From Dehalococcoidia bacterium (GTDB taxonomy: Bacteria; Chloroflexota; Dehalococcoidia; DSTF01; JALHUB01), in the NCBI GenBank assembly GCA_030018455.1, contig JASEFU010000008.1:1-64000 (forward strand): a stretch of DNA of 64,000 bases, read 5' to 3'. A program made the position numbers and the translations under genes. The stretch's first letter is position 1. Each line of letters starts with the position of its first letter. Of this stretch, positions 3,064 to 29,297 are shown one piece after another. The notes under the pieces are model-generated. The model did no database searches, was not told the DNA's origin, and worked only from the letters and a program-made list of their open reading frames with translations.

Positions 3064-3139
3064 GGGGCTGTAGCTCAATTGGGAGAGCGTTTGTCTGGCA
3101 GACAAAAGGTAGGGGGTTCGAATCCCCCCAGCTCCACCA
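3064..3139 (+). tRNA. tRNA-Ala (anticodon GGC)
   Basis: A full cloverleaf is visible. The acceptor arm GGGGCTG pairs with CAGCTCC (one G-U pair). The D arm contains AGCTCAATTGGGAGAGC. The anticodon stem TTTGT/ACAAA closes a seven-base loop CTGGCAG with anticodon GGC. The T arm contains GGGGGTTCGAATCCCCC. The 3' CCA is encoded, after discriminator A. It reads the alanine codon GCC (and GCU by wobble). It sits only about 15 bases before a T-box leader. Confidence 0.95.
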
Positions 3140-3152
3140 GATTCATATTCGA

Positions 3153-3404
3153 GAACTGCGGGGAACAGGAGTAGTAGGCCCCGATGCCCGTCCAGAGAGC
3201 CGGCGGTCGGTGCGAGCCGGCAAGTGAGGGCTGAACTCGCCTGGGAGCAGCGCCGGTCAGCGAAAGCAGCCGGCGACGGCGGCGCCCGTTATCGCGCCTC
3301 TGAGCGTCCCGGTTGCGGCGATGGCTGCGAGCCGTCGTTTCACAACCGGGAAATCAGGGTGGTACCGCGGAGCAGCCCTCCGTCCCTGGGACGGGGGGTT
3401 TTCG
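3153..3404 (+). promoter_or_regulatory. T-box riboswitch, leucine specifier (CTC)
   Basis: T-boxes sense uncharged tRNA and relieve premature termination of aminoacyl-tRNA synthetase genes. The core T-box AGGGTGGTACCGCGG lies at 3357-3371, with its UGG positioned to pair with the tRNA NCCA end. Stem I contains AGTAG near its base and an apical AGAGAGCC...GGTGCGAG pattern typical of the AG-bulge/terminal-loop module. The specifier loop has GAA followed by CTC at 3236-3238, a leucine codon, with CTGGGAGC just after. The leader ends in an intrinsic terminator. Downstream leuS agrees with the specifier. T-boxes are known in Chloroflexota. Control appears transcriptional because a terminator is present. 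Confidence 0.93.
3376..3403 (+). terminator. T-box intrinsic terminator
   Basis: CCCTCCGT pairs with ACGGGGGG (one G-U pair) around the loop CCCTGGG and is followed by TTTT. The 5' arm begins just after the T-box core, so antiterminator formation on tRNA binding would exclude this hairpin. Confidence 0.85.
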
Positions 3405-26312: not shown

Positions 26313-28136
26313 ATGGCGCAAATGACAATCCCTGCGATGTTCGAGGAAGCGGTCCGCCGCCACGAAAGGAAAGCGGCGTTCCAGATGAAGGTAGGCAGGG
26401 AGTACAGGGAACTCACGTACGGCGATCTTTACCGGCGGGCCCGCGCGTTTGCCTCCGGACTCGTCGCCCTGGGAATGAGGCCCGGCGACAGGGTGGGCCT
26501 GGTGGCCGAGAACGGCTTCGAGTGGGTGACCGCCTACCTCGGGCTGTCGATGGCCGGCGGCGTCGGCGTGCCGGTGTACTACGAACTGAAGCCGCCCGAG
26601 ATCGAAGACGCCCTCAAGCGCGCCGAGGCCCGATTTGTCGTTACCTCCGCGAAGGTGCTTCCCAAGATCCCCGAGCGGCTGTCCGAGCTGGAGACCGTCT
26701 TCGTCATCGGCGACGGCGCCGCCGCGGTCGAAGCACGGTCATCACTCGTCGGCTTCCTCTACCGCCGTCCCCGCGCGCGTCTGCTGCCCTTCGAGGCGGT
26801 AGCGGAGCAGGCCACGCCCGAAAGCGACACCGCCCTCGCTGCTATCGGCATCAAGCCGGAAGACCTCGCGTCCATCGTCTACACCTCCGGCACGACCGGC
26901 GGCGCCAAGGGCGTGATGCTCACCCACGGCAACTTCGTCTCGAACGTGAGCGGAGTCCCGCAGATCATGCCGGTCGGCGAGAGGGACAAGATCCTGCTTC
27001 TTCTGCCCCTCCATCACGCATATCCGTTCACCGTCGAATTCCTCCTCCCCCTTGCGGTGGGAGCGACGGTGGTCATTGAAAACGACCTCGTGCGCGTCCG
27101 CGACCGCCTCTCGGAGACGCATCCCACCGTTTTCGCCGGCGTCCCGGCGTTGTTCGACATCATGCTGCGCGCCATACGGAGCCAGGCGGAGGCGCAGGGC
27201 CGCGGGCAGATATTCCAGCGCGGCCTCGACCTTGTGGCGCGGGTCAAAGAGCGCACGGGCATAAACATCGGCCATCTCGTCTTCCGCGAGCTGCACGCGC
27301 GGCTGGGCGGCCGCCTGCGCTTCATGGCCAGCGGCGGCGCTGCCCTCAGCCCCGACACGGCGCGGACTTACTACAAGCTCGGCCTCCTCTTGCTCCAGGG
27401 ATGGGGTCTGACCGAGACCTCACCCATTATCACCGGCCAGCGCTTTTACCCCAGCAGGTTCAGGCTGACCAACTACTATGAGAAACAGCTCGGATCTGTG
27501 GGCAAGCCCCTCCCCGCGGTCGACGTTACCCTCATAGACGTGCCGGAAAAGGAAATATACGTCCTCCTGCACGACGAAGGCGAGCTCACCGTCCGTGGCC
27601 CAAACGTGACCCCGGGCTACTGGAAGGCGGAGCCGGAGACGCGCGCCGCCAAGATCGGAGAGTGGCTCCGAACAGGCGACGTGGGCCGGATCGACAAGGA
27701 CGGCAACGTGTTCATCACCGGGCGCAGCAAGTACGTCATAGTCCTCGAATCCGGCGAAAAGGTCCACCCCGACGAGGTGGAAGGCCTTCTCCAGACAAGC
27801 CCCCTCATCGAGGACGTCGCGGTCGTCGGCCGTAACGTGAGGGGAAAGACGCAGGTATCGTGCGTCGTCTACCCGAATTACGCCGCGGTCAGCGAGCGGC
27901 TGGCCGGCAATGGGCAGTCCGTGGACGAGAGGACGGTGCGGGAGATCGTGACGTCGGAGATCGATCGGCTGGAAGAGACGATAGCCCCCTACAAGCGCAC
28001 CGTCGACTGCACCCTCACGGACTCGCCCCTGCCCAAGACGGCGCTGCGAAAAGTGGCCCGCGAACTGCTCTCGGAGAGCTACTCTTTCGACGTGAAGCGC
28101 TGGCAGGAGAGCAGCGCGAGCCTCAGCCTTACATAA
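26313..28136 (+). CDS. AMP-forming long-chain acyl-CoA synthetase
   Basis: This enzyme activates fatty acids to acyl-AMP and then acyl-CoA. The AMP-binding P-loop YTSGTTGGAKGVMLTHGN is near residues 190-207, GWGLTETSP near 366, and RTGDVGRIDKDGNVFITGR near 450-468. The C-terminal domain carries the adenylation Lys region LPKTALRKVARELL. At 607 aa it fits the FadD/long-chain group. It is monocistronic, followed by a candidate small RNA and a convergent gene. Confidence 0.92.
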   Translation: MAQMTIPAMFEEAVRRHERKAAFQMKVGREYRELTYGDLYRRARAFASGLVALGMRPGDRVGLVAENGFEWVTAYLGLSMAGGVGVPVYYELKPPEIEDALKRAEARFVVTSAKVLPKIPERLSELETVFVIGDGAAAVEARSSLVGFLYRRPRARLLPFEAVAEQATPESDTALAAIGIKPEDLASIVYTSGTTGGAKGVMLTHGNFVSNVSGVPQIMPVGERDKILLLLPLHHAYPFTVEFLLPLAVGATVVIENDLVRVRDRLSETHPTVFAGVPALFDIMLRAIRSQAEAQGRGQIFQRGLDLVARVKERTGINIGHLVFRELHARLGGRLRFMASGGAALSPDTARTYYKLGLLLLQGWGLTETSPIITGQRFYPSRFRLTNYYEKQLGSVGKPLPAVDVTLIDVPEKEIYVLLHDEGELTVRGPNVTPGYWKAEPETRAAKIGEWLRTGDVGRIDKDGNVFITGRSKYVIVLESGEKVHPDEVEGLLQTSPLIEDVAVVGRNVRGKTQVSCVVYPNYAAVSERLAGNGQSVDERTVREIVTSEIDRLEETIAPYKRTVDCTLTDSPLPKTALRKVARELLSESYSFDVKRWQESSASLSLT

Positions 28137-28181: not shown

Positions 28182-28210
28182 TTGACAAGCCTTGCCCGGA
28201 ATGGTATGTT
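28182..28210 (+). promoter_or_regulatory. Promoter inside a convergent intergenic region
   Basis: TTGACA, a perfect -35, stands exactly 17 bases before TATGTT. It points into a 175-base stretch with no open reading frame on the plus strand, so it should drive a non-coding transcript starting near 28217. Confidence 0.65.
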
Positions 28211-28216
28211 GACAAG

Positions 28217-28345
28217 TGCTCCGAGTGGCGGAGTAATCCCGGTGGACAAACCTGAGCCGGTAAGCCAAGGGCGAAAGCCTGAGGCAGAAAACTCAGGGGC
28301 GGATGAAACCAGGAAAGCAAGGTCACTCGGGGCTTTGCTTTGTGG
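28217..28345 (+). ncRNA. Candidate structured small RNA
   Basis: Downstream of a good promoter, nested helices can be drawn: hairpin CTCCG/CGGAG (28219-28233); helix ATCC/GGAT (28236-28239 with 28301-28304); inside it CCTGAG/CTCAGG (28251-28256 with 28292-28297); inside that GCC/GGC and then GGC-GAAA-GCC with a GNRA tetraloop, separated by a purine-rich symmetric internal loop (AAG against TGA). A 3' hairpin AAAGCAA/TTGCTTT (28314-28341) could end it. It is not tmRNA, SRP RNA, RNase P RNA or a riboswitch class I recognise. Downstream on this strand is antisense to the HPRT gene end, so a cis riboswitch is unlikely. Confidence 0.5.
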
Positions 28346-28385: not shown

Positions 28386-29297
28386 CTAGGGCTGCTGCGG
28401 CGGCTTGAGGGTGGCGATGAACGACAGGTTGCGGTAGAGCTGGTGGTAATCGAGGCCGTACCCGATGACAAACTCGTCCGGTATCTCAAAGCCTACGTAC
28501 GCTATGGGGATGTCCACCAGCCGCCGCGCCCTGCGGTCGAGCAAAGTGCACACCTTCAGGCTGGCCGGGCGATGCGCCTCTAAATAGCCCAGCAGGTAGT
28601 TCAGCGTCATCCCCGTGTCGATGATGTCCTCCACGACCAGCACATCGCGCCCCTCGACGTTCTCGTCCAGGTCCTTCAGTATGCGCACCGACGTCCCGCT
28701 CTCGTTCTCGTAAGATGATATCGCCATGAAATCGACGGCAAGGGGAAGCGATATCTGGCGCATGAGGTCGGCCATGAAGCAGGTAACCCCCTTGAGGACG
28801 CCCACGAGCAGCGGCGTCTTGCCGCGATAGTCCTTCGTGATCTGGGCCCCCAGCTCGCTGACGCGGCGCTTGAGCTGAGGCGCGCTGATGAGCACCCGCT
28901 CGATGCGCTCGATGCTCTTCGAGGAGGGCGGACCGAAGCCGTACTTCGCCAGGAGCCGCAGGTAGTCGCGCTTATTCAGCAGCTTTATTTTCGTGTGCGG
29001 GTAGAGCTGGCGCATGAGGCGGACCTTGCGGTGCTTATCCGTCATCAGCCCCTGCCGGAGCGTCGTCAGCTCAATATACGTATCGATGTCGGGCAGATAG
29101 AAATCGGGGGTGAACGCTTCCGTCACGCGGTCTTCTTCGGTCCGAAGGGGGAATGTCCGCGGTTCGTACTGCCAGCTTATGCCGTAGAAGTCGAGTATCT
29201 TCGCGAACTCCTCTTCGCTGGCGTGCGCAAACACAGTCGGTCGGGCCTTCTCGATGTCTGTCGCGTCGGCCGGCGTCGGTTCGATTTCGCCCTTCAT
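28386..29297 (-). CDS. Hypoxanthine phosphoribosyltransferase with an N-terminal nuclease-like domain
   Basis: The C-terminal half (about 125-303) is HPRT, which salvages hypoxanthine/guanine with PRPP: the PRPP loop VLVVEDIIDTGMTL is at 219-232, with GVLKG near 166 and DEFVIGYGLDY near the end. The first 120 residues are extra and resemble a PD-(D/E)XK nuclease fold: Glu29/30, PDFYLP with Asp65, YIELTT with Glu76, then a Lys-rich helix. The usual Lys of ExK is Thr78, though Lys88 or Lys91 could substitute. At 303 aa it is about 120 longer than ordinary HPRT. AGGAGAGGA precedes the ATG. Confidence 0.85.
   Translation of the reverse strand: MKGEIEPTPADATDIEKARPTVFAHASEEEFAKILDFYGISWQYEPRTFPLRTEEDRVTEAFTPDFYLPDIDTYIELTTLRQGLMTDKHRKVRLMRQLYPHTKIKLLNKRDYLRLLAKYGFGPPSSKSIERIERVLISAPQLKRRVSELGAQITKDYRGKTPLLVGVLKGVTCFMADLMRQISLPLAVDFMAISSYENESGTSVRILKDLDENVEGRDVLVVEDIIDTGMTLNYLLGYLEAHRPASLKVCTLLDRRARRLVDIPIAYVGFEIPDEFVIGYGLDYHQLYRNLSFIATLKPPQQP

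Follow-up and report, generated by a model that had tools for sequence, protein, structure and literature searches.

Small structured RNAs of several kinds are known in bacteria, and some of them resemble the RNA considered here. 6S RNA (RF00013) is a rod with a long closing stem and independent transcription, and its cyanobacterial neighbour is the purine gene purK (PMC1242208). Bacterial SRP RNA (RF00169) is a short rod with purine internal loops. OLE, ROOL and GOLLD are noncoding RNAs that were found by conservation and whose role is unknown or poorly known; OLE forms an RNP (PMC9723947). The sponges of the CsrB/RsmY type occur in multiple copies with GGA in their loops. Within the Dehalococcoidia, the rdhA motif of Dehalococcoides is a candidate structured RNA (PMC11109978).

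The RNA described here is encoded in a 64,000-nucleotide stretch of a Dehalococcoidia genome (contig JASEFU010000008.1, positions 1 to 64,000; hereafter the window). Like 6S RNA, the family to which it belongs would form independently transcribed rods with a long closing stem and usually adjoins a purine-related gene, an HPRT fusion; however, it lacks the large central bubble and any sequence or covariance-model match to 6S RNA, and has small purine-only loops and several diverse copies per genome. It differs from SRP RNA in that the true SRP RNA of the genome, its only RF00169 match, lies elsewhere (C1:100731-100830). Compared with OLE, ROOL and GOLLD it is much shorter, consists of a single rod, belongs to another phylum and has no Rfam match, whereas comparison with CsrB/RsmY is weakened by the lack of CsrA in most genomes carrying the RNA. 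Unlike the family RNA, the rdhA motif acts in cis, ahead of reductive dehalogenase genes, and the main text of PMC11109978 mentions neither hypoxanthine nor phosphoribosyltransferase. No description of the family was found in the main texts of the open-licence literature.

The RNA gene of the window

The locus is intergenic, flanked by an AMP-binding ligase gene (26313-28136, plus strand) and an HPRT-fusion gene (28386-29297, minus strand). A sigma-70-type promoter (TTGACA, 17 bases, TATGTT, with TG ahead of the -10 element) is located at 28182-28210 on the plus strand. It scores 10/12, is the only such site within 3 kb and ends seven bases upstream of the RNA. No plus-strand gene follows before the HPRT-fusion frame; the promoter and this gene-free stretch are both as the preliminary description had them. 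That description placed a small RNA within 28182-28345; an RNA is indeed found there, but the RNA proper, matched by two covariance models (R1 and R2), is narrower (28218-28333, plus strand). Judged from its sequence, this interval is the gene of a small RNA from which no protein is made.

For the segment 28211-28345 the predicted folding energy is -54.9 kcal/mol (z = -3.5; one shuffle in 200 did as well). In the predicted fold a closing helix of 12 bp, also supported by covariation, joins both RNA ends, with its 5' strand GCTCCGAGTGGC at 28218-28229 and its 3' strand GTCACTCGGGGC at 28322-28333. Further inside, an inner stem (28251-28300, plus strand) pairs CCTGAG with CTCAGG around a GGTAA/GAAAA purine loop and the tip GGGCGAAAGCC; the internal loops are purine-rich and the tip is capped by GAAA. 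The nested helices and the GGC-GAAA-GCC loop proposed earlier are present in this fold, but the separate 3' hairpin is not: the 3' end pairs instead with the 5' end (GCUCCGAGUGGC/GUCACUCGGGGC) and is followed by a T-rich, terminator-like end, TTTGCTTTG (28334-28342, plus strand).

The Rfam search proposed for this stretch gave no match up to E = 5 among 4227 families of Rfam 15, and 13 homologue loci gave no credible match over the RNA. When the whole window was compared with Rfam, tRNA and T-box alone reached the threshold; ARAGORN found only tRNA-Ala (3064-3139), and neither tmRNA nor tRNA at the RNA locus. This tRNA-Ala is directly followed by the T-box leader on the plus strand (3064-3390). 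SRP RNA, 6S RNA, tmRNA and the Rfam riboswitches were rejected as identities by covariance models or ARAGORN. Many weak matches in relatives fall on the stretch GGGCGAAAGCCTGA, presumably through its chance likeness to a 16S rRNA hairpin. No DNA similarity to the RNA was found in plasmids, nor any exact pattern match in viral contigs.

Homologues, covariation and spread of the family

The DNA search of relatives led to two genomes, one of the same order (G016) and one of the same class (G138), in which a promoter reads into an RNA ending in ACTCGGGGC and T-rich sequence, beside the 3' end of a convergent HPRT-fusion gene. The flanks of the HPRT-fusion gene from many genomes repeatedly displayed this layout; family f116 also has the RNA next to the HPRT fusion, separated from it by a small ORF.

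Model R1, built from 15 short members with the window left out, matches 53 of 393 genomes of the class Dehalococcoidia (best E = 1.5e-26) and still finds the window RNA at E = 0.006 in a whole-genome search. Model R2, whose training set includes the window itself, finds the window RNA at E = 1.2e-13 and matches 80 of the 393 class genomes (112 matches genome-wide), as well as 20 genomes in other Chloroflexota families. Both models were seeded from copies beside the HPRT-fusion gene, and the genomes searched were those of Chloroflexota. By covariance model the family comprises 118 members, mainly from Dehalococcoidia, and on sequence evidence it recurs across the phylum Chloroflexota. Genomes of genus g94 contain up to five copies each, and those away from the HPRT locus keep the same promoter layout among unrelated neighbours. 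At two loci of this genus (L290, L291) the 137-nt paralogues are part of a repeat, some 400 bp long and dispersed, of which two copies in G110:C16 are 94% identical; defence-like genes (HEC-05, methyltransferase) lie nearby. At another locus (L105:260-374 and 2189-2304) two family RNAs on opposite strands flank the HPRT-fusion locus of one genome.

The promoter is a constant element of the family: TTGACA is found in 108 of the 116 members with enough upstream sequence, the -10 element is of the extended type (TGnTAnnnT), the distance to the RNA is 6-8 nt, and the mean score is 9.8/12 against 6.6 for shuffled sequences. At the other end, the first 10 bases after the RNA hold on average 6.7 T. 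The 118 members are 93-304 nt long by model bounds; 90% of their unpaired bases are purines, and their internal loops are mostly symmetric (1x1, 2x2, 3x3). The words GAGTA and AGGTA are enriched in the loops and, opposite GAAA, appear to resemble the loop-E motif.

Covariation was analysed in an alignment of 77 members, which was fitted to the model and hence leans towards it; in it 92.4% of pairs are standard and 21 of 26 pairs show compensatory, both-sided changes. Such changes fill 212 cells, against 67 in shuffles and 15-46 in slid controls, in which 32-51% of cells are paired against 92% in the true register. When the closing helix is read inwards from the two ends of the RNA, with no recourse to the model, it has 21 pair-by-family both-sided changes, and its pair 6 switches between A-U and G-C within five families and also within one genus (G184 against G354). 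Comparison of genomes establishes the gene, its promoter, its fold and its spread. As the preliminary description suspected, the small RNA appears to be undescribed: with its lack of an Rfam match, strong covariation and conserved promoter of its own, it almost certainly represents a real RNA gene family absent from Rfam.

The HPRT-fusion gene and its linkage with the RNA

The convergent gene 28386-29297 (minus strand) encodes the candidate partner, a protein in which a T7-endonuclease-I-like domain (approximately residues 20-120) is fused to HPRT (135-297). The N-terminal domain has a weak match to T7 endonuclease I (E = 6e-4) and none above cut-off in Pfam. The fusion gave a structure model of moderate quality (pLDDT 71), whose best 50 fold matches are all plain HPRT, so the identity of the N-terminal domain depends on the weak sequence match. 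Since its motif ELT stands where the enzyme has ETK, with Thr for the catalytic Lys, the domain may bind rather than cut. In G138 the fusion also carries a GAF domain. Elsewhere in Chloroflexota some families encode the endonuclease-I-like domain on its own, in one case (L338) directly behind obgE-nadD.

Comparison likewise establishes the linkage between RNA and domain. Among the 112 matches, 62 lie within 1 kb of the fusion gene (median gap 56 nt), all of them convergent with it; the remaining 50 are elsewhere, and no common neighbour was seen in the 20 contexts read. A cis-acting riboswitch or leader is rejected on these grounds, the near copies being convergent in 62 of 62 cases and the other contexts varied. 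The fusion is present in 79 of the 80 RNA-positive class genomes, the exception (G348) being among the weakest matches (E = 7.6e-4). Outside the class, all 20 RNA-positive genomes have the domain, sometimes without HPRT, and in four families (f117, f128, f134, f150) it has a gene of its own, at a distance from the RNA. No RNA was detected within 2 kb of the fusion genes in CSP1-3/Armatimonadetes and Thermomicrobia loci, at 43 of 130 gene-adjacent loci, or by the fusion gene in 18 of the 80 RNA-positive genomes. Three lineages, f70 among them, have the RNA on the fusion gene's own strand. The strength of the co-occurrence is limited by phylogenetic dependence and by models seeded from gene-adjacent copies, and the linkage could reflect shared ancestry of one locus.

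Possible functions of the RNA

The RNA very probably acts in trans, as the preliminary description considered more likely. This is argued because the copies, of which a genome may have as many as five, occupy unrelated intergenic sites and vary in strand, and because both own-strand and off-locus copies are found, the latter with their own promoter and unrelated neighbours. We infer transcription and action as an RNP. RNA polymerase would start at 28216-28218 from the near-consensus promoter, and transcription would be ended by the 5'-3' closing helix followed by the T-rich sequence. The product would fold as a rod: a long closing helix would be continued by short helices, set apart by purine-purine internal loops that are for the most part symmetric, and most members would have a loop-E-like GAGUA/GAAA module close to the tip. 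The RNA would then bind a protein, the best candidate being the one with the endonuclease-I-like domain, usually HPRT-fused and usually adjoining. This complete reading, in which a structural RNA from outside the Rfam families is transcribed on its own and acts in trans as an RNP, most likely with the endonuclease-like/HPRT protein, has roughly even chances of being correct; the choice of that protein as partner, taken by itself, is somewhat more doubtful.

The main rival, to which we give perhaps one chance in several, is that in this family Chloroflexota have their missing 6S RNA, which would sequester RNA polymerase through the likeness of its rod to an open promoter. RF00013 matched none of 18 genomes at E <= 10, while the control search does find 6S RNA in others; the long closing rod, the strong housekeeping-type promoter and the purine gene beside cyanobacterial 6S RNA (PMC1242208) also suit this idea. 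Yet the family lacks the large central bubble by which 6S RNA is defined (in minimum-energy folds an internal loop has at least 8 bases on both sides in 10 of the 118 members, and at least 10 in 3), the Rfam 6S model matches neither the window RNA nor the RNAs of the 13 homologue loci, up to five diverse copies occur per genome, and the co-occurrence with the endonuclease-like domain is left unexplained.

Less probable still is a regulatory sRNA that acts by base pairing, or a decoy that titrates an RNA or the anti-Shine-Dalgarno sequence with its GGAGG-like purine loops. The purine content of the unpaired positions (90%) and the presence of GGAGG in loops (25 observed, 11 expected in shuffled loops) agree with it, although these words are a minority and the loops are mostly short and symmetric, like non-canonical pairing. 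Hfq is absent from all 18 genomes tested, and an Hfq-dependent sRNA was rejected for this reason.

The antisense control of the HPRT mRNA 3' end that had been proposed, or a 3'-end element of the HPRT-fusion mRNA, is improbable as a general role. In the genome-wide search all 62 copies closer than 1 kb to the gene converge with it, which would favour this role, but other copies, kilobases away, on other contigs or on the gene's own strand, have the same architecture and their own promoter and contradict it; 18 of 80 RNA-positive genomes lack a detected copy beside the gene, and the window RNA stops 53 bases short of the HPRT frame. Finally, a CsrB/RsmY-like sponge for CsrA, suggested by the somewhat enriched GGA in loops (336 against 251) and by the CsrA-like genes of G000, was set aside as the least probable of all, CsrA being found in only 4 of 18 genomes and missing from the other 14, most of which carry the RNA.

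The preferred trans-acting RNP may be extended, tentatively and with the odds against it, to a new type of RNP present throughout the phylum, in which a purine-looped rod RNA and the endonuclease-I-like domain (Thr for the catalytic Lys), usually HPRT-fused and sometimes with GAF too, would couple the state of purine salvage to an RNA-based function. A structured RNA of Dehalococcoidia, including genomes resembling Dehalococcoides, and of other Chloroflexota appears to have been missed by Rfam. It may be either a 6S-type regulator for a phylum seemingly without one or an RNP built on the HPRT fusion; with a fixed promoter and a single linked protein, it lends itself to direct tests of both ideas.
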